From: Bdellovibrio sp. BCCA
GTDB taxonomy: Bacteria; Bdellovibrionota; Bdellovibrionia; Bdellovibrionales; Bdellovibrionaceae
Direction: 5' to 3'
Length of the DNA: 64,000 bases
Assembly (NCBI RefSeq): GCF_037996825.1
Contig: NZ_JBBNAC010000001.1
Span: 2,046,001 to 2,110,000, forward strand
How positions within the stretch are numbered: position 1 is the stretch's first letter; each line of letters begins with the position of its first letter. The notes under the pieces are model-generated. The model was not told the origin of the DNA. It saw nothing but the letters and a program-made list of their open reading frames with translations, and made no database searches. Below, piece by piece: positions 21,271 through 44,480 of this stretch. Made by a program: the position numbers and the translations under genes.

Positions 21271-22027
21271 TACTTAAAGCCCCTGCTTCTAGATATTGTT
21301 TTGCAAGATCAGCATCGTTTACGGTCCACAAAGACACAGGAATTTTTCTGCTTTTCCATTTTTGCAGCGATTTGATATCGACATAGTGATAGTCCAAATG
21401 CAAAACATGGACTTTCACATACGGCGCCAACCACATCTGGCGCAGATAGATTTTATTTTCAGGTTCTTCTTCCAAGGTGGCTAAAAGAGCGCGCGGCACC
21501 TGAGGTAAATGACGGCTCAGTCTCCACAAGGAGAGAGGATTAAAGCTTGAAAACAAAATGCGTTTTTCTGCTTCATGCTTTTTGATAACGGCAGACACTT
21601 TTTCTTCCAAGCGTCCATCAAAGACTGAATTCGTTTTTAATTCAACGTTAAGATATTTTGGAATATCGGTAGATAAAAGAACTTCTTCAAGTGTGGGCGC
21701 TTGGGCCCACACTCGCAATTCAGCGGCCGTGCATTCGCTGACGAACTTCCCTCTTCCGGCAAGACGCTTTAAATCAGCATCATGGAAAACCACAGGCACT
21801 AGATCCTTGGAAAGACGAACATCCATCTCCACCATTTTAAGACCGCGCGCTTTCGCAGCTTCAAAAGAGGCCATCGTGTTTTCCTGCGCTCCGCCCTTCC
21901 AATAGCCGCGATGTCCTTGATAGCTTGGAGGCATTAAAGCACCTTGCGGCCATGGCAGCGATCTCCAGGTAAAATGGCGATAAATTAAAAACGCAGCCAT
22001 GATTAAGACAACGAAAAGAAAAAGCAT
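21227..22027 (-). CDS. Glycerophosphodiester phosphodiesterase
   Basis: 266 residues. N-terminal membrane segment (about 2-20), then a GDPD TIM barrel: GHRGYW and ENTMASFEAA (catalytic His, metal-binding Glu), VEMDVRLSKDLVPVVFHD (EMD...HD, second catalytic His) and a C-terminal VSLWTVNDADLAKQYL. It releases glycerol 3-phosphate from lysophospholipid head groups or phosphodiesters. The membrane anchor suggests action at the envelope. Its start overlaps the stop of the AsmA-like gene by one base (TAATG), so the two are translationally coupled. Confidence 0.92.
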   Translation of the reverse strand: MLFLFVVLIMAAFLIYRHFTWRSLPWPQGALMPPSYQGHRGYWKGGAQENTMASFEAAKARGLKMVEMDVRLSKDLVPVVFHDADLKRLAGRGKFVSECTAAELRVWAQAPTLEEVLLSTDIPKYLNVELKTNSVFDGRLEEKVSAVIKKHEAEKRILFSSFNPLSLWRLSRHLPQVPRALLATLEEEPENKIYLRQMWLAPYVKVHVLHLDYHYVDIKSLQKWKSRKIPVSLWTVNDADLAKQYLEAGALSIISDSLGEVADSSH

Positions 22028-24003
22028 TATTTCCTCATTGTTTTCGCGGAGTCTTCAAGGAACTGAGGATTTTCACGGTCCCCATCTATAAACCACTTTC
22101 TATGTCTCTTACCTTCTTTGGCAAGCACACTGCCCTTAAGATCTCCGTCTTCATCCCAAGAACCGTCCGTCAACAAACGTCCGGTTTTTCCAATTTGCCC
22201 TTGAAAGTTTTTCCAGGAAAGTTCTTGAGATTTCTTTAAATGAAACTGACCGGTCAAAGAGTTGAGAGTTAACTTTCCACCATTCCACCAAACAGGTTCT
22301 GTCACTTGTTTTAAAACATCGGCTCCCGGTGATCCTGGAACCACGACCAAGGATTTCACTTGCGCATTAAGAACGACTTCACCTTGAGCCCAATCGACGG
22401 ACGCTTTTGTTTTTTCAAAGCTTAAGCCTTCAACATTCATACTATCGACACGAAGAAGACCTTTTAGATAAGACATCTGACCTTTTTTAATTTTGACATC
22501 ACCATCAAGACTCAAAAGTCCGATATCCCCGCCGTTTGTCATCAACTTTTGCACCGCCGGGTCCAGCACGACTTCATCCACACGCGTTTTCACTTCGATA
22601 TCTTGGAAATCCCGATCGGCTTTCATTTTCACATCACCGATGAATGTTCCTGCTCTGGGTTCGACACGTTTGATGTGAAAATTCCAATCATTGTCTTGCA
22701 GATCAATGTCCCCAACCATGTGTTCAATGACTTGCACTTCACGCTGGCCTTTGTTTGAAAAAACAAATTGCAAACCTGAATGTTCGCCTGTCATTTTCAT
22801 TTTTTGATCTGAAACAATTTCGGCTCGTCCGGTAAACACACCGAGTTCGCCTAGCATGCTCGTGTTCTTCGGACGATTTAACAAAACCAGTAATTTCCCG
22901 ATATCGAGCTTTTTTACATCGACAACAATAGGAGAATAGCGAAGGGGCTCTACCGAAGAGATATCGATGCGATCCACACGCATCTCTCCTAAATCTCCTT
23001 CAAGACGCATATCGCGCACTTCAATCGGAGACGTGCGCACTTTGTCTAACGGAGCCACCAGGCGCGCTTTAGAGGAAATCCATACTTGGCGGCCGTTAAG
23101 ATCTTTGGAAGCCAAGCCATACTTTTGCATAATCGTGAGGATTTGACTCAGAGGAATGTGTTTCAAATCTGTTTCGATCGCCAACAGCTGTTCATCTATC
23201 GTGTAGTTGGCAATAATACTGTAATGACCTTCACGCCAGTTTCCGAAAAAGTGAGATTGAATTGTGGCTTCAGGAGATTCTTTATATTGAACGTAAAGAT
23301 TAGCGTGAGAAAGATAATCTCCAACTTGAGCATCTTTAAGAAGATGCGTTTTGGCCGTGACCTCAATCACTTTAGGTTCAAAAGATTTTACTTTGGCTAC
23401 GAAATTTAAAAGTTCAGAGTGATATTGGGGATATTTTTCAGAAGAAATTTCTAACTTCTGCACACGAATACCGCGCACGTCGTTTTGATATTTTTGCGAT
23501 TGTTCAGACGGAGACAGTGTTACCAAGGGAGCCGGTTTGTTGTCCGCTTTTTTTTCTTCTTCTTGAACATCGCAATTTTTAAAATCTTCACGCAGAACAA
23601 GTTTGACGTTGTTCGCTTCGATATTTTGAATAGGTGTTCCTCCACGAAGCGCGTTTAAGATAGAAATCGGCAAACGCAACTCGTCCACTTCCAAGATGGG
23701 AGCCGCCCAACACTTCTGTGAAGATTCCATACGCACTTGGGAAATGATCACAGCAAAGCGAGGCAAAATGCCGTCACTCATACTAAACTGCGCGGAAGCA
23801 AAATTAACTTTAACGTCTTTGTGAATGTGACTTGCCGCTTTTTCGATCTGAGCAAAAACTCGCGCAGGAGATAAAAGAGATTTCGCCGTGTACCCTAAAA
23901 AGAACGACAAGATAAGACCGGAAAGGAGAATCACCATTCCCGGTTGTTCTGCAATAAGATGTTTATCTGAAGATGCTGATGATGAGCGTTTGCGCGAGTC
24001 CAT
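22027..24003 (-). CDS. AsmA-like envelope protein
   Basis: 658 residues. Short Ser/Arg-rich cytosolic start, one membrane segment (about 24-45), then a long beta-rich periplasmic region with an AsmA/TamB-like pattern: early ARVFAQIEKAASHIHKDVKVNFASAQ, repeated short strands with VDRIDISSVEPLRY, DGDVKIKKGQM and SLTGQFHLKKSQ. AsmA-type proteins are thought to bridge the periplasm and move phospholipids to the outer membrane. Coupling to the phospholipid-related GDPD supports a lipid role. Two Cys (QKCWAA, FKNCDV) could form a disulfide. Family assignment is by general character rather than a hard motif. Confidence 0.65.
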   Translation of the reverse strand: MDSRKRSSSASSDKHLIAEQPGMVILLSGLILSFFLGYTAKSLLSPARVFAQIEKAASHIHKDVKVNFASAQFSMSDGILPRFAVIISQVRMESSQKCWAAPILEVDELRLPISILNALRGGTPIQNIEANNVKLVLREDFKNCDVQEEEKKADNKPAPLVTLSPSEQSQKYQNDVRGIRVQKLEISSEKYPQYHSELLNFVAKVKSFEPKVIEVTAKTHLLKDAQVGDYLSHANLYVQYKESPEATIQSHFFGNWREGHYSIIANYTIDEQLLAIETDLKHIPLSQILTIMQKYGLASKDLNGRQVWISSKARLVAPLDKVRTSPIEVRDMRLEGDLGEMRVDRIDISSVEPLRYSPIVVDVKKLDIGKLLVLLNRPKNTSMLGELGVFTGRAEIVSDQKMKMTGEHSGLQFVFSNKGQREVQVIEHMVGDIDLQDNDWNFHIKRVEPRAGTFIGDVKMKADRDFQDIEVKTRVDEVVLDPAVQKLMTNGGDIGLLSLDGDVKIKKGQMSYLKGLLRVDSMNVEGLSFEKTKASVDWAQGEVVLNAQVKSLVVVPGSPGADVLKQVTEPVWWNGGKLTLNSLTGQFHLKKSQELSWKNFQGQIGKTGRLLTDGSWDEDGDLKGSVLAKEGKRHRKWFIDGDRENPQFLEDSAKTMRK

Positions 24004-30829: not shown

Positions 30830-32071
30830 CTATTTCTGACTTAAACGAGTTTCCGCTGGCGCAAGCCAGATGTCGATAATATCGCCCGTTTTCATCTTAC
30901 CGTTTTCCTTATACCAGAATTTCGCACGTTCGCGCGCTTCTGCGTAACGTCCAATGGGTTCTAAAATTCCTTTTTTGTAGTCGAGTGAAATCTTCACGAC
31001 CTTTTTAGAGAGCTTCACCATTTCTTCTTTTTGCGAAATGCCATCGCCGTTTTTATCATTCCAAAGAACGAGCTTGTTGAAGTCTTTGTCTTTTTTGTCG
31101 ATCACACCGTCTTTGTTGGAATCGAATTGCTTCAGGACTTCGAAGCCATTTTCAACAGAGGCATTATCACCGAAGAGTTCGTTTTTCTCTTCGATCATTC
31201 CGGTTTTATTGCGATCAATTGCCACAAACCAACCTGGCGAGTTGGCTTCGGGCCACATTGTTTTTCCAGTTGGATTCAAAGGGAAAGTGCTGGAGTTCGT
31301 GAAAGTAGGCCTTTCATTATTAAAGAAGACCATCAACGGAGACCAATAACCTCCGCAGAAACCCGTTTGTCCTGGAAAGGACACGTTGATCTCTACATTT
31401 GTACGGTCTGAAGAGACATTCACGCCACCAAAAGAGGCGGAAATGGGACCGTCTTTACCCATATATTCACCACAACTATGAGTTGGTTTGTATGACGAAT
31501 AGCCGTAAGCCCCGTAAACCGCAGATTGATTCGAGCAGTCCACCGTTTGTTCAAAGCTGTAACTCTTTAAATAAACATCACCGACACTTTGAACGACAAT
31601 GTTTCCGGTAGAATCAATGGATACTCCCGAAGGAATCGGAGTCTTCAGCAATACAGTATTTCCGTAAATACCTGCTGATCCTCCACCTGGAATACTAAAT
31701 GTTTCTGCGCTCATAGGCTTTACAGAGTTCGTCTTCATTCCCTCAGCAGTAACTAGTCCAGATGGATATTTCACCATAATAGGATATTCTTTACCGCCAA
31801 TAACAAGATTCAAATTTGCCGTGATGATCGCACTGGGTGACAGTGGATTTCCCACGCCCCGCAAGTTCGTTCCAAAGCACGAATTGTTAATTCGGACGTT
31901 AACCGCTGATTTACCAGAGCGAGATACCATGCCTGCAGCAGGAGCTGACGCGACAGAGTCTCCAGAGGTGTTTGTATTCACTGCCATCGGCATATCTTTT
32001 TCAGTAGCCCCTGCCAGCACGCCGACTGTCATACCTAGCAAGAACGTGATAAAACTTGCATGACGTTTCAT
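30830..32071 (-). CDS. Exported EF-hand-containing protein, last gene of the pseudopilin operon
   Basis: 413 residues. Signal peptide (MKRHASFITFLLGMTVGVLAGA), then about 260 residues of Gly/Ser/Asn-rich predicted beta structure with four or more Cys. The C-terminal part has calcium-loop motifs: DRNKTGMIEEKNELFG, DSNKDGVIDKKDKDF and DKNGDGISQKEE, spaced as in secreted bacterial EF-hand modules. Lies 18 bases after the prepilin gene, same strand, so probably the last of four co-transcribed genes. Likely surface-exposed or pilus-associated and Ca2+-stabilised; that role is inferred. Confidence 0.75.
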   Translation of the reverse strand: MKRHASFITFLLGMTVGVLAGATEKDMPMAVNTNTSGDSVASAPAAGMVSRSGKSAVNVRINNSCFGTNLRGVGNPLSPSAIITANLNLVIGGKEYPIMVKYPSGLVTAEGMKTNSVKPMSAETFSIPGGGSAGIYGNTVLLKTPIPSGVSIDSTGNIVVQSVGDVYLKSYSFEQTVDCSNQSAVYGAYGYSSYKPTHSCGEYMGKDGPISASFGGVNVSSDRTNVEINVSFPGQTGFCGGYWSPLMVFFNNERPTFTNSSTFPLNPTGKTMWPEANSPGWFVAIDRNKTGMIEEKNELFGDNASVENGFEVLKQFDSNKDGVIDKKDKDFNKLVLWNDKNGDGISQKEEMVKLSKKVVKISLDYKKGILEPIGRYAEARERAKFWYKENGKMKTGDIIDIWLAPAETRLSQK

Positions 32072-32089
32072 ATTTCCCCCAAAAAATTC

Positions 32090-33091
32090 CTAAAGACTCG
32101 CGGTTTTCACCTTGTCTTCGTCTGACATCTTTTTAACTTTAAAATAAATCATTTTTTTGATCACAGAGTCTCTGCGGACCATGAACTCTTTCACCTTATC
32201 CGCTAACAAGAAAGGCTGAGACCATGTTCCATTTTCGAAAGTAGTTTTATACAAACGAGCAGGCGTCGATGTATAACGACTGTCCTCATACCTTTCCAAA
32301 TAGTATCGAATAAATCTTACCGGTCTAAGGCGTACTAGCGGAATACCACCACCCATTGAAGGAATGGTTCTTAAGAATGAATCTGCCGTTGTAATTTCGT
32401 TTCCCGTTTCTGGATGCTTGATATTTAGAAAACCTTTAATGGCGATGTCCATATCCATTCTTTGTCCTTTTACCGAGCCCACAAATATAGGGCTGCGGGG
32501 AGCCACAGTCAGGTCCACATTACCTAAACTGTCCATGGGACGAATGCGAGCCGGCGTATCCAGCATCAAAATTTTGCCATCAACCCAGAATTCCTTCCGT
32601 TGATTTTTCACGAAATTATTATGGTTGACTGTTTGAAACTCTAAAGTTGCAGACAGATTAAAGTCAGCAGGCACAGGCCCAATATTATAAGCCGCCGGAG
32701 GATCATAATTTAGAAGAGCTCCCGATTTAACATCCTGAACCATGATATAAAAATCAGTGCGGTTTCCTGTCGGAGTTAAGACGATATCTCTCTCAATTTT
32801 TCCTTTAAGGGCATTTTGGGGGACATCCGGATAATAATCGAAGAAGGAAAGCCCTTTATCGTCTTTGAGATTTACATTGTTATAGGAAGGATCGGAATTA
32901 TTGAGATCAGAAAAAATAACCCTTTCCGCTAAGTTTGTATCAATGGAATCCTCAAGCTTGTCTTTTAACTGAGCTTGATCCTTAGAAACAAACAGCTGAG
33001 TCGTTACAATAACCATCGTGAGAGCGGCCATCAGGCCGATCCCCACAACTACTTCTACGGCGGTAAAACCTTTGTTAGTTCTTAACATCAT
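32090..33091 (-). CDS. Prepilin-like protein with class III signal (large minor pseudopilin)
   Basis: 333 residues. N-terminus MMLRTNKG then FTAVEVVVGIGLMAALTMVIV: a prepilin peptidase site (Gly before Phe) with Glu at +5 and the usual hydrophobic helix. The rest is a soluble beta-rich domain much larger than a major pilin, similar in plan to PilW/GspJ-like minor pseudopilins. The ATG at 33091 is chosen over an upstream frame because it gives the prepilin start and overlaps the preceding gene's TGA (ATGA coupling). Confidence 0.82.
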   Translation of the reverse strand: MMLRTNKGFTAVEVVVGIGLMAALTMVIVTTQLFVSKDQAQLKDKLEDSIDTNLAERVIFSDLNNSDPSYNNVNLKDDKGLSFFDYYPDVPQNALKGKIERDIVLTPTGNRTDFYIMVQDVKSGALLNYDPPAAYNIGPVPADFNLSATLEFQTVNHNNFVKNQRKEFWVDGKILMLDTPARIRPMDSLGNVDLTVAPRSPIFVGSVKGQRMDMDIAIKGFLNIKHPETGNEITTADSFLRTIPSMGGGIPLVRLRPVRFIRYYLERYEDSRYTSTPARLYKTTFENGTWSQPFLLADKVKEFMVRRDSVIKKMIYFKVKKMSDEDKVKTASL

Positions 33092-33534
33092 TTTGCACTC
33101 ACCACGAAAATATAGTCTTTGTACGGCTCGCCTTTTGCGGCCCACATTTTATGTGTCATTCGCAAAGTTACTTTATAAAGGCCACGATAAGATTCATACG
33201 GTTGAATGACATAACCGTACGTTCCAGCACAATCGGGACAGTCTTCACGAAGAGCGACCTTTCCATTATCCCATGCCATGGGCAGACTGTCCGGCGCCAA
33301 CATTTCTCCCGCCGCGGTTTTATAATTAAAATTTACTTGGTAGTTTTCGACACCCGATTTGATATTCTCAGCTATATCGGCAATTTGTTTTTCGGAAGAA
33401 GACATCACTACGGTACTGCGGGATGTGTTTCTTAAAGAAACCATTCCTCCGATAAAAGCAGAACCGACAATGGCAATCAAACCAAGTCCTACAAGAGATT
33501 CAACGATTGTTTGACCTCGATTATTTAAGATCAT
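33088..33534 (-). CDS. Prepilin-like minor pseudopilin (GspI/PilV size)
   Basis: 148 residues. MILNNRG then QTIVESLVGLGLIAIVGSAFIGG: Gly cleavage site, Glu at +5 and the hydrophobic helix. A small C-terminal domain holds a CPDC pair that may form a disulfide and a KVTLRMTHKMW strand. Size and position between a GspK-like and a larger prepilin suggest a PilV/GspI-type subunit. Overlaps both neighbours by 4 bases (ATGA), so three genes form one tightly coupled unit. Confidence 0.82.
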   Translation of the reverse strand: MILNNRGQTIVESLVGLGLIAIVGSAFIGGMVSLRNTSRSTVVMSSSEKQIADIAENIKSGVENYQVNFNYKTAAGEMLAPDSLPMAWDNGKVALREDCPDCAGTYGYVIQPYESYRGLYKVTLRMTHKMWAAKGEPYKDYIFVVSAK

Positions 33535-36518
33535 ATTCCACCCTCTCTTGATTGCTCGACGACGAAGAATCGAACCATGCGACGCTTACATGTCGTATTT
33601 GAGGAGCTTGTTGTACCTGAACCCGCAACAAGACCGCAGTCGGGATCAACAGTTGTCCATTGAAAGGGATCTGCTTTACCGCGAAGACTGATAGCATTGC
33701 ATGACATGCGATCCGAAACTTCAATTGCTGAAGGAATTGGATGCCAGATTGGGTCCGCGTTCTTATCGTCACATGAACGGCCCGACTTGGATTGTAGAAT
33801 TCTCGCATTACGCAGTTCAACAGTGGCTTGAGGAGAATAAATCGAACTCCAGTTAATTCCTGCTTTGATCGCATCACTATGGATTCTCAATTTGCCGACG
33901 ATAAACGTTCCAATGATGCGTAACGGTTTTGTTCTTTTCTCGATTTCCAAATCATCACAAGCCACAAATCCAGTAACAAACTCTGCCGACTCTTGAATCA
34001 CGCACTTACCAACGATAGATCGTAGTTGGAATGTCGCATTGGCACGAGTTGCATTGGTACTATTCCAAATAAGCTCGTTCAAAGCGGGATCCTCCCCTGC
34101 TTTGGTATTTTGAGTTCCGGCAAAATTCCAGGAGATGCGTGTGCTCGGACTAAAATCTGTATTCCAGCCTGCGCCACCGAATGATTGTGAAGTTGCGGCA
34201 TTACGGGCCGCCTCACACTGCGCTGCCAACGCCGTGTAATCCGTATCATCCACATCTGCAGTTATGATCGTTGAGTTTGCCTCTTTAGTCGCATAATCAG
34301 GACCATCAAGATATAACTGCGAGTTATTAAATTTAAAATTCAGATAGCCTTTCAAATTTTCATTTGATGGTATGCCATAGAGAGGTTCACTTCTATAAAA
34401 GGTTCCATCATAGGCCTGAAGTCCCACAACGGGCGCTACTAATTTACCATTTGCATCCAAAAAGCTTTTTGCATTCGTTACGGTGAAGTCAATATCCAAC
34501 TTATCGTCTGCATAGTCCCATTTAGTTTTAACTCGCGAAGTATCGACTTCAATAACAGGCGGATTGGCCTTTAAATTTAGATAAGCGTTGTAGTTTGTTT
34601 TCGCCATATCCACATCTTTTGAGGCCAAGTTCACGACACTGTCTTGAGCAGGAATTTTGTTATTCACCAAATCAGAGATCTCGGCATTGAGATCTTTAAT
34701 CTTCGCTTCTAAAGAACTAATAAGTTGAGGATCTTGATAGTCCACATTATCCGCTGGTTGTTGAGCTGTTGTAGTTCCACCGGTTGTAGTGCCGCCGGAT
34801 GTTGTTCCAGACGTTGTCCCTGATGTAGTTCCACTCTGAGTTGTTTGTGTCGTCTGAGTTCCGGAAGTATCTGTTGTGCTTGCGACGGTTCTTTTCGGTT
34901 TTGCTTCTTCTTCAGCTAATTGATTTTTCGTTTCATTTAAAAGTTTACGGTCGTAGCTTAACTTTTGATCTAGCGCTTTTTGATCTTTCAATGCAGTATT
35001 GTATTTTGCTTCAGCTGTCGTTTTTGCATTCACTAACGTATTTTCATAAGCAGGTGATCCAACAGGAACGATAACTTTCGCGTAACCATTTCTTGGCAAT
35101 TGGAAATCTACGTATCGGCCCCCAACATAGATGCGAAATTCCATCACGGCGCCGCCGAAATAAATGTCGGATTGATCAATTTCGACTTTTCCATCACCCC
35201 ACTGAGATGTATTGATACGTAAAGCGTTCCACTGACGAGAAAATTCATTCCCGTTAGAGAGTGTGATGCGGTAATCATACTGTGACATTGTCTCGTTGGT
35301 CTTTCTCGCACCTAATTTAGATTTCTGAGTTATTGTATCAACTTTGGCTCTACTTAGCGCAAAGTCGATACATTTCTTCATCAGCTCCATGCTTGTTGCT
35401 AATGAACCTGTACTAGTTGAACCAGGACCGTTTTTGAAAACTTCAAGGCCTTTATCAAGACCACCATCATTTTCGATCCCTTTTAAAAAACCACCAAAAG
35501 TTCGGGCATCGGCCCAATAACGATCGGCCAAACCGCCCATTGAACGTGGAGAATAAACTTCGTTATTTCCTTTTTTGACCCAACCGTTGCCGAGATAAAC
35601 CCGTTCAGCGAAAGTCACTGCACTATATTGTGTATTCCCGTCTACCTGATTCGCTGGTCCGTTATCTTCGGGAAGATAAATGTCTTTATTCACAAAAACA
35701 GGACTATTAAATACAAGTCCTGGGCTTGATCCCAAATCAGAACGAGATCCAAATTTATGAAGAGAAACACTGCCCGTTTTCGGCGCGAAAGTGTAATCCC
35801 AAGGCAAATCCAAATGCAGATCTCCAGGGACTAACAACGCAAAAGAACCTACTTCACGCGGGTAGACAACAATTTGGGAATTAATTTCCATCTTCGTTCG
35901 GCCGAATGCTATAGGATCTGACTCTTTAAATTCTTTCAAAGCCACATGAATTTGTAGATATACTTCTCGACCGGCTCTTGGAAGATAAGGACTGTCATCA
36001 CGTTGGATATCAACGGAGATGAATCCCACTTTCACTGGATTTCCATCAGGCCCCTTTACTGAACGTAAACTGTTTAATACTGGAAACAGAGGATGGTCTG
36101 TCGTGGCCACGGTAACGTCAATCAGCCGACTGATTTTTGAAAGGCGGATTTCACTGGGGTTTACAGGTCCTACGTTTTGATTGGCGGCAATCAAGCCTTT
36201 GATAAAGTTTTCCTGTTCCACAGACATCAAGACACGCTCAACGTTTCCGGAGTGCACAAGGTTGCACTTATCAGGCGTGTCGTTCAGAAGCGCATAATCC
36301 GGCGTAAAACAGTATTTCTGTCTAACACCGAAAATCACATAGTCCATGGCGCTGTTAAGAGCAAATCGCAGGTTTACCAGGTTGACCGTTGTACCTACTT
36401 GCTCTTTCTGTCCAATCACGTAGTTCGTGAGGAAGTAAAAAGAAGTACTCATCACGGCGGTGGCGGCCAAGATTTGCAACAAAACATTACCTGCTGAGTT
36501 ACGTACCGACTTAAGCAT
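33531..36518 (-). CDS. Very large pseudopilin-like protein (possible GspK/PilX-type tip)
   Basis: 995 residues. N-terminus MLKSVRNSAG-NVLLQILAATAVMSTSFYFLT resembles a prepilin leader and helix, but +5 is Gln rather than Glu; GspK-type tip subunits also lack this Glu. Then about 400 residues of beta-rich sequence, a Lys/Glu coiled coil (about 520-560), a Thr/Ser/Gly linker (about 565-600, TSGTTSGTTSGG-type), another coiled coil and a Cys-containing C-terminal domain. ATG at 36518 has AAGGAAACATTT before it. First gene of the operon. Far larger than GspK (about 330), so it may be a specialised adhesive tip. Confidence 0.62.
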   Translation of the reverse strand: MLKSVRNSAGNVLLQILAATAVMSTSFYFLTNYVIGQKEQVGTTVNLVNLRFALNSAMDYVIFGVRQKYCFTPDYALLNDTPDKCNLVHSGNVERVLMSVEQENFIKGLIAANQNVGPVNPSEIRLSKISRLIDVTVATTDHPLFPVLNSLRSVKGPDGNPVKVGFISVDIQRDDSPYLPRAGREVYLQIHVALKEFKESDPIAFGRTKMEINSQIVVYPREVGSFALLVPGDLHLDLPWDYTFAPKTGSVSLHKFGSRSDLGSSPGLVFNSPVFVNKDIYLPEDNGPANQVDGNTQYSAVTFAERVYLGNGWVKKGNNEVYSPRSMGGLADRYWADARTFGGFLKGIENDGGLDKGLEVFKNGPGSTSTGSLATSMELMKKCIDFALSRAKVDTITQKSKLGARKTNETMSQYDYRITLSNGNEFSRQWNALRINTSQWGDGKVEIDQSDIYFGGAVMEFRIYVGGRYVDFQLPRNGYAKVIVPVGSPAYENTLVNAKTTAEAKYNTALKDQKALDQKLSYDRKLLNETKNQLAEEEAKPKRTVASTTDTSGTQTTQTTQSGTTSGTTSGTTSGGTTTGGTTTAQQPADNVDYQDPQLISSLEAKIKDLNAEISDLVNNKIPAQDSVVNLASKDVDMAKTNYNAYLNLKANPPVIEVDTSRVKTKWDYADDKLDIDFTVTNAKSFLDANGKLVAPVVGLQAYDGTFYRSEPLYGIPSNENLKGYLNFKFNNSQLYLDGPDYATKEANSTIITADVDDTDYTALAAQCEAARNAATSQSFGGAGWNTDFSPSTRISWNFAGTQNTKAGEDPALNELIWNSTNATRANATFQLRSIVGKCVIQESAEFVTGFVACDDLEIEKRTKPLRIIGTFIVGKLRIHSDAIKAGINWSSIYSPQATVELRNARILQSKSGRSCDDKNADPIWHPIPSAIEVSDRMSCNAISLRGKADPFQWTTVDPDCGLVAGSGTTSSSNTTCKRRMVRFFVVEQSREGGI

Positions 36519-42866: not shown

Positions 42867-44480
42867 ATGAAGTTCATTTACGTCCTGGAAGATGATGAAC
42901 GTATTCAAAAGGATCTGTATGAGACTTTAAAAAGTATAGATCCAAAGCTTCATATTCGCTTTTTTCTCACTCTTGCACAATTTCACGAATGGCTTAAATT
43001 CGCAGTCCACGAAGGTGCAAAATCCTTAGCCCCTGGCGGGCAAAAATATAAAGATGATGACTCAGAAGAGATCACCGCGTCTGACACCCATGAATTAAGA
43101 TTGGTCGTCGCAAAATACGAATTTTTTGGTGCAAAGAATATGGGGCTCATCAAACGAGCCCGCGATTTTTTCGTGCGCAAGAAAATGTGCTCAGAACAAG
43201 AACCCACGGCCCTGATCTTGACCGCTTTCGATAGTCCTGACTTCGACATTGCACTCGCTGAAGAACGCATCATTAATAATGTGATCTTTAAACCCTTTGA
43301 TAAATTAATTCTGAAGCAACATCTTGAGTACGCTCTTACGGGGCACCATCCTGTGAATACAGGCACCGTGGCGGCAATGAAAATTCAGTCCACAATTGAA
43401 ATGCTTAAAGAGGTTGCTTTTAACAGCATCTCCGAAATCGGATTTACGACGATCAACAATCATGAGATCAAAATCGGAGCCATAACGAAGTACTATAGCG
43501 ACGTCTTTAAGGCAGAAAACAAAAGAAGTATTTTTGCGTACTGTCACTCTTGCAAAGAAATTGCCCCGGCAGCTTCGGCTTCCGCCGACAAAGAATATCT
43601 TTGTGAGTTTCACTTCTTTGGCGCCGACAACAAACAGATAAGCCAGATCCGACGAAGCATTCTCCAAAACAAATCTCACGAAGTTCACAATCTTATGAAC
43701 ACTCAAGGTAGCACCATGAGAGTTCTGGTCATCGACGAAGACGTCGCCGCAGGCCTGGAAATTAAAAATTTTCTGAGCGAAAAAATCTCCAATCTAGAAA
43801 TTTACAATTACGCTCACTATGGACAACTGCTTTCAGATCTTTCTGACAAGGACACGGTCAACCGTCAGGAACTTCCACCGCAATTTGATATGGTCTTTGC
43901 GAGCTATGATCTTTTTGAGATTGAAAAGGAAAAACGCTGGGGACAAATCTGCCAGTATCTGCAAGACCGAGCCACCAAGCACGCCATTTCCACGTCAGGT
44001 CCACCGCATTTATATTTGCTTTCTCGAAAAAAAGTCCCGACGGACGAGATCAGAAATATTGCTTCTTGGAGCAAAGAAATCTTTTTCATTCCTCTCGACA
44101 AAGGCTACATTCTTAAAAAAATCCTCTCGCAGCATTCCACTCTTCTAAATCGCGAAAATTCCACCGTTTCTAGCATTAAGGACAATAGCGTCTTGAAGGT
44201 CGCTAATCCGGTTGAGATCACGCAGATTTCTGAAGCGGGGCTGGTGCTTAAGTATTACCGTGCGATGAGCACAGGCGCTTTCCGAGAGTTTATCTTATGG
44301 CGCCCCGAAGAAACCGAGACGCCTGAAATCACAGGAACCGTGAACTTCACGGAAGAGGACAAAAACGGCGGAGAGTTCTTTTTGAATCACTTCGTCTTTT
44401 TCGGGATGAAGGACCACTATCTTAAACACATCCGCCTTTGGTTGCGCGAAGCTTATATTAAATCAAAAGAAAAAGGCTAA
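42867..44480 (+). CDS. Duplicated degenerate-receiver/PilZ-like protein
   Basis: 537 residues that look like a two-fold repeat. Half one: receiver-like [10 protein letters not shown] (1-150, [16 protein letters not shown] at its end), then a PilZ-like segment with [19 protein letters not shown] (about 175-275). Half two: [19 protein letters not shown] (about 283-420), then [20 protein letters not shown] (about 440-537). In both receivers the phospho-acceptor Asp is replaced: Lys83 in VVAKYEF and Ser346 in VFASYDLF. The PilZ-like parts lack an evident RxxxR, so c-di-GMP binding is doubtful. Likely a signalling scaffold. Leaderless start. Overlaps copA's end by 4 bases. Confidence 0.65.

Follow-up and report, generated by a model that had tools for sequence, protein, structure and literature searches.

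The closest described counterparts of the locus studied here are two similar operons of Bdellovibrio HD100, Bd2209-Bd2212 and Bd2723-Bd2726, which are expressed in attack phase and whose products are predicted by AlphaFold-Multimer to form four-protein complexes, with interface predicted template modelling scores (ipTM) of 0.852 and 0.837, respectively (PMC12034629). Transposon (Tn) mutants of Bd2210, Bd2211, Bd2212 and Bd2723 lost predation, as cited in PMC12034629, and the BD2210::tn mutant was defective in prey attachment, killing and rounding, placing it in the same class as the PilT and TadC mutants (PMC6561027). Here we describe the same genes, in syntenic position and of matching size, in a 64,000-nucleotide stretch of Bdellovibrio sp. 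BCCA (the window; positions 2,046,001 to 2,110,000 of contig NZ_JBBNAC010000001.1, assembly GCF_037996825.1), where four genes, P1 to P4, form a cassette. PMC12034629 treats the operon products as hypothetical proteins, with no mention of pilins or calcium, whereas we find that they probably make up a four-protein tip complex, in which minor pilins have a partner with an FrpC-type self-processing module (SPM) fold, carried by a type IV-type filament, for which the type IVa pilus (T4aP) is the likeliest candidate, and touching prey. The cassette extends across the phylum. Since the operon is already known as a predicted complex, what is new is the pilus-tip reading and its parts list, not the discovery of the operon. 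Also new is the reading that this probable pilus tip carries a borrowed calcium-binding module of a toxin family.

Two further systems resemble parts of the cassette. The FimU-PilVWX-PilY1 tip complexes of Myxococcus (PMC13190605) and Pseudomonas likewise combine minor pilins with a secreted calcium-binding partner encoded in one operon, and occur as several paralogous clusters. In contrast to them, the BCCA cassette is without the PilY1 beta-propeller, its P4 being predicted to combine an immunoglobulin (Ig)-like domain with the SPM fold, and its P1 greatly exceeds PilX in size. In ComZ of Thermus thermophilus, a solenoid like that of ice-binding proteins is placed between the last two strands of a GspK-like pilin domain; ComZ has a smaller pilin partner, PilA2, and a tip position has been argued for it (PMC6561018). 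The P1 model suggests a similar plan, with a large solenoid in a GspK-like pilin, but with an inserted Ig-like domain and a coiled-coil hairpin in addition, and in the cassette P1 is accompanied by two smaller pilins as well as by a secreted protein.

Prepilin signals and conservation of the cassette

The four genes are co-directional on the minus strand (coordinates are collected in the table below). P1 overlaps P2, and P2 overlaps P3, by ATGA, so that the three prepilin-like genes are joined as the first-pass annotation had described; P4 starts 18 bases past P3 and is preceded by a purine-rich stretch. All three pilin products have a prepilin signal with Gly-1 followed by a hydrophobic helix, with predicted cleavage at SAG|NVLLQ in P1, NRG|QTIVE in P2 and NKG|FTAVE in P3. 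The residue at +5 is thus Gln in P1 and Glu in its partners. Across the families, Glu+5 was absent from P1 (0/66 members with a readable site) and nearly universal in the partners (58/59 for P2, 67/67 for P3), bearing out the earlier remark that the largest protein lacks Glu+5 as GspK does. In type II secretion systems (T2SS) the GspK tip subunit is without Glu+5 and its partners GspI and GspJ have it, which is the pattern seen for P1 versus P2 and P3.

Pfam and NCBIfam yielded no family for P1 and gave P2 and P3 sub-threshold matches only, with N_methyl at ~15 bits against a Pfam cut-off of 21.2, and a PHROGs search was uninformative. The P3 of a paralogous cassette reached 35.6 bits with N_methyl, above the cut-off.

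The order P1-P2-P3-P4 is retained in some 65 loci from several families of Bdellovibrionota, including Bacteriovoracaceae. P3 was detected in 28 of the 60 relatives searched, including 22/24 genomes of the same genus, with at least two copies in most; P4 was similarly distributed, and some 50 loci around the P3 or P4 matches keep the four-gene order. A second search, which covered partly the same genomes as the first, returned 24 named loci, which belong to Bdellovibrio and other Bdellovibrionales, to Bacteriovoracaceae and to a Halobacteriovorax bin. All four genes were present in 22/24 of these; L141 ends at a contig end, and P2 is uncalled in L163. When the P4 profile was run against 192 Bdellovibrionota genomes, the matches listed were near full length in 36, including 16/17 of the genus. 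Because the four-gene order is kept in relatives, we do not regard the cassette as a chance arrangement. The BCCA genome itself holds a second cassette (C1:2584485-2590000).

The correspondence with HD100 was assigned from synteny and from protein lengths matching PMC12034629. In the syntenic genome G006, cassette genes of 328, 153 and 995 aa adjoin a sulA-like gene, which identifies them as Bd2210-Bd2212 and the fourth as Bd2209; the sulA-like anchor gene is Bd2205 (PMC3818213). The suggestion of the first-pass annotation that the cassette serves adhesion or prey contact agrees with the loss of predation and the attachment failure of the HD100 mutants. That annotation missed the fold of P4, the existence of paralogous cassettes and their conservation throughout the phylum, as well as the prior description of the operon as a predicted complex.

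Domain structure of P1 and P4

In the AlphaFold2 (AF2) model of P1, a 59-residue N-terminal pilin helix (8-66) is followed by strands to residue 220 and then by a region of mixed beta structure. Beyond this come a coiled-coil hairpin and a C-terminal beta part, which is conserved and terminates in a strand at 984-993. The hairpin helices, 489-538 and 597-651, flank a disordered Thr/Ser/Gly stretch (543-593), so the coiled coil and linker read earlier from the letters alone have a counterpart in the model. In a VIA comparison with the PDB, the best-matching pilin was Thermus ComZ (6qvi; Z 8.5, root-mean-square deviation (rmsd) 3.8 over 187 residues, spanning model residues 219-983); matches with a Z above that of ComZ were generic coiled-coil hairpins. 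Ice-binding beta-solenoids followed at Z 6.5-7. A weak match (Z 5.2) to XcpV, a minor pseudopilin, covered residues 46-219. Foldseek alone gave no match to the P1 model at E 0.001, ComZ surfacing only in VIA, and the P1 profile found only chance coiled-coil matches among PDB sequences. The long N-terminal helix and the matches to ComZ and XcpV suggest a pilin-like fold. Given the ComZ match, and the solenoid inserted into the GspK-like domain of ComZ, the predicted P1 looks like a ComZ-type pilin into which one more module has been inserted.

This distal module is the fastest-evolving part of the protein. Among 22 P1 sequences of the genus, mean pairwise identity was 28-38% in the distal module and 43-71% elsewhere, reaching 71% in the N-terminal helix and 61% in the C-terminal beta part. 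The second part of the solenoid-like domain is the portion that retrieves distant paralogues.

P4 was described in the first-pass annotation as an exported EF-hand protein. Its N-terminus is signal-peptide-like and EF-like loops can be read from its sequence, which upholds export and calcium loops as predictions, but the protein is more than a set of EF hands, with a predicted Ig-like domain followed by a predicted FrpC-type SPM fold. In the SPM of FrpC (6sjw/6sjx), self-cleavage begins with attack of an Asp side chain on its own carbonyl (PMC7078468). P4 shares with that module the predicted fold, EF-like loops (two to three of them), the pair of Trp residues and equivalents of Pro415 and Asp579: P245 aligns with residue 1 of 6sjw (Pro415), and W273 and W337 (FrpC Trp451/Trp519), D317, D328, D339 and E350 are invariant in the P4 family alignment; D400, at the position of Asp579, is invariant too. 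Unlike FrpC, however, the P4 family has Ser in place of Asp414 in nearly all members (Ser-Pro in 66/67, Asp-Pro in 1/67), the fourth calcium site is lost, and the module is part of a pilin operon rather than of an RTX protein. As the Asp nucleophile is replaced by Ser, self-cleavage of P4 is not expected from its sequence. The PilY1 beta-propeller family PF05567 gave no match in P4, whose predicted fold is Ig-like plus SPM.

The Asp-Pro member (L095:2785-4032, genome G033) has this pair at the module start, like self-cleaving FrpC-type modules. SPM-like modules also occur outside the cassette, and some of these are again linked to pilins, which favours the tip reading. One forms the C-terminus of a 625-aa prepilin (L186:6366-8243, genome G019), and in G015 and G029 (L112:3437-10652 and L178:5798-12960) large proteins with SPM-like domains are followed by prepilin genes, full-length P4 not being found in these two genomes; others have no pilin neighbours. 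We also considered P4 as an EF-hand protein unrelated to pilins, and rejected this because its gene travels with the pilin genes and the published multimer model includes P4.

Assembly, partner filament and alternative readings

The machinery on which a pilin reading depends is encoded in the genome, which has one A24 prepilin peptidase (PilD), the T4aP genes for PilBTC, PilMNOPQ and PilA, a Tad locus, and a T2SS whose operon includes a complete GspG-H-I-J-K set of its own. Neither of the two observations that the first-pass annotation had named as fatal to its reading, the lack of a predicted pilin-like fold or of a prepilin peptidase and assembly machinery, was thus made. If P1 to P4 form a tip complex, PilD would cut the three pilins, and the GspI/PilV-like P2 and GspJ/PilW-like P3, with Glu+5, could enter the helical bundle. 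P1, with no Glu+5, a bulky ComZ-like beta-solenoid and a fast-evolving coiled-coil module, would cap the filament; the pilins would prime filament assembly and so end up at the tip, where the distal module of P1 may be the contact surface. P4 would be exported to the periplasm, bind calcium in the EF-hand-like loops of its FrpC-type fold, on which its function may depend, and join P1-P3 as a soluble cap or adhesin, in the place that PilY1 takes in other type IVa pili. The complete tip would be required for prey attachment.

P4 is thereby a candidate for the missing PilY1. Searches of the genus with PF05567 and with the PilY1 of G042 as queries found no PilY1, although the positive control was weak: one PilY1, that of G042, was detected below the PF05567 cut-off, none of 14 control genomes was positive, and this absence is not proof. 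G042, which belongs to the same order, encodes PilY1-like proteins with a PF05567 score below the cut-off and has no full-length P4 (L114).

The weakness of this control is one of several points that weigh against the tip-complex reading. Tad, a T2SS and several other minor-pilin sets coexist in the genome, so that P1-P4 may be borne by a filament other than the T4aP. The P1 model has a mean predicted local distance difference test score (pLDDT) of 75 and a predicted template modelling score (pTM) of 0.58. Profile alignments with hhalign of P3 to GspJ and of P1 to GspK of the same genome were not significant. Finally, the phenotypes of the Tn mutants were obtained in another strain and may reflect polar effects within the operon.

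The same four-protein tip could instead dock on a Tad pilus and, in the manner of the Kil Tips, serve contact-dependent killing. According to PMC12075869, the Kil Tips (KilLMN) of Myxococcus Tad pili are three-pilin complexes with a short, an extended and a very large pilin, the last containing a pair of long helices together with a beta scaffold; they come in several paralogous sets and serve prey contact. The same paper also reports a structural analogue in B. bacteriovorus, with gene numbers given only in a figure, which may be this cassette. The Tad locus of the BCCA genome would provide the filament, and TadC and Bd2210 mutants fall in one attachment-defective class (PMC6561027). However, Kil Tips are of TadE/F/G type, whereas the motifs of P2 and P3 are of T4aP/T2SS type (F/Q-T-x-x-E, N_methyl-like), and Pfam gave no TadE match for P1-P3. 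The neighbourhood of the cassette is also free of Tad genes. In PMC12075869, moreover, the hidden Markov models of Kil tips were confined to Myxococcota, and its text mentions no SPM-fold partner for them. We consider docking on a Tad pilus unlikely.

ComZ binds DNA (PMC6561018), and its standing as the best-matching pilin for P1 in the PDB comparison, together with a ComEC-type protein encoded in the genome, raises the question of a competence pilus whose tip carries P1 as a DNA receptor. We believe this to be very improbable: mutants of the orthologues are reported to lose prey attachment and predation, no competence genes are linked to the cassette, and the ComZ match spans the solenoid scaffold. 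A specialised pseudopilus tip of a type II-like system that exports prey-acting proteins would suit the GspK/I/J pattern of P1-P2-P3 and the presence of a T2SS, but the T2SS operon already carries a full pseudopilin set and no Gsp gene lies near the cassette, so that there is little chance of this being its role.

If P1 to P4 do form the tip of a type IVa pilus, the cassette bears on how Bdellovibrio recognises and grips prey. The Tn hits in Bd2210-Bd2212 and Bd2723, formerly unexplained hypothetical proteins, would become hits in pilus-tip subunits, with a testable mechanism, and variation among paralogous tips could be tied to prey range. A bolder and rather doubtful extension is that a domesticated RTX SPM protein has taken over from the PilY1 adhesin in the type IVa pili of Bdellovibrionota, that prey range is set by the fast-evolving, paralogous tips of P1 and P4, and that in the L095 lineage, with Asp-Pro, the tip might even be linked covalently to prey.

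Neighbourhood and further copies

The genes annotated around the cassette in the window encode a thioredoxin-like protein, an ABC1 kinase, a photolyase, an epimerase with DUF1731, a cation-efflux protein and CtaA. With these as neighbours, no pilus machinery gene adjoins the cassette, and the earlier statement that no secretin, ATPase or major pilin gene is adjacent stands. Elsewhere in the window, proteins of 658 aa (22027-24003) and 537 aa (42867-44480) have no Pfam match at E 0.001.

Table. Genes of the cassette and predicted features of P1 and P4, in window coordinates.
Feature	Position	Strand	Description or basis
P1	33531..36518	minus	995 aa; GspK/ComZ-like large minor pilin; orthologue of HD100 Bd2212; Gln+5
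P2	33088..33534	minus	148 aa; GspI/PilV-like minor pilin; orthologue of Bd2211; Glu+5
P3	32090..33091	minus	333 aa; GspJ/PilW-like minor pilin; orthologue of Bd2210; Glu+5
P4	30830..32071	minus	413 aa; predicted exported calcium-loop protein; orthologue of Bd2209 (annotated frpC)
P1 N-terminal pilin helix (aa 8-66)	36321..36497	minus	AF2 model; 71% mean pairwise identity in genus
P1 beta-solenoid-like domain, first part (~aa 221-398, approximate boundaries)	35325..35858	minus	resembles ComZ 6qvi and ice-binding proteins
P1 inserted distal module (~aa 399-736), fastest-evolving	34311..35324	minus	AF2 model, structure match, identity
P1 antiparallel coiled-coil hairpin (aa 489-651)	34566..35054	minus	AF2 model
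P1 disordered Thr/Ser/Gly-rich hairpin turn (~aa 543-596)	34731..34892	minus	pLDDT <50
P1 beta-solenoid-like domain, second part (~aa 813-960)	33639..34082	minus	AF2 model, structure match
P4 N-terminal Ig/CNA-B-like beta-sandwich (aa 53-236)	31364..31915	minus	AF2 model; best match Z 5.8, Gram-positive pilus proteins (weak)
P4 FrpC-SPM-fold domain (aa 244-409)	30845..31342	minus	6sjw Z 19.1, rmsd 2.5, 154 residues; phmmer 5.8e-11
P4 Ser244-Pro245	31337..31342	minus	position of FrpC Asp414-Pro415 cleavage site
P4 putative calcium loop DSNKDGVIDKKD (aa 317-328; FrpC D499-D511)	31088..31123	minus	sequence
P4 putative calcium loop DKNGDGISQKEE (aa 339-350; FrpC D521-E532)	31022..31057	minus	sequence

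Besides the second cassette (L081), the BCCA genome encodes at least four more minor-pilin sets (L111, L134, L135 and L137), each with one member without Glu+5. L135 resembles P1-P2-P3 in gene order, with products of 854, 170 and 353 aa, and has no P4. The only rearranged order seen among the relatives was at L104:3944-9116, with P4 placed upstream of P1. Tandem duplication of the whole four-gene cassette occurs in three genomes (L074, L076 and L078).

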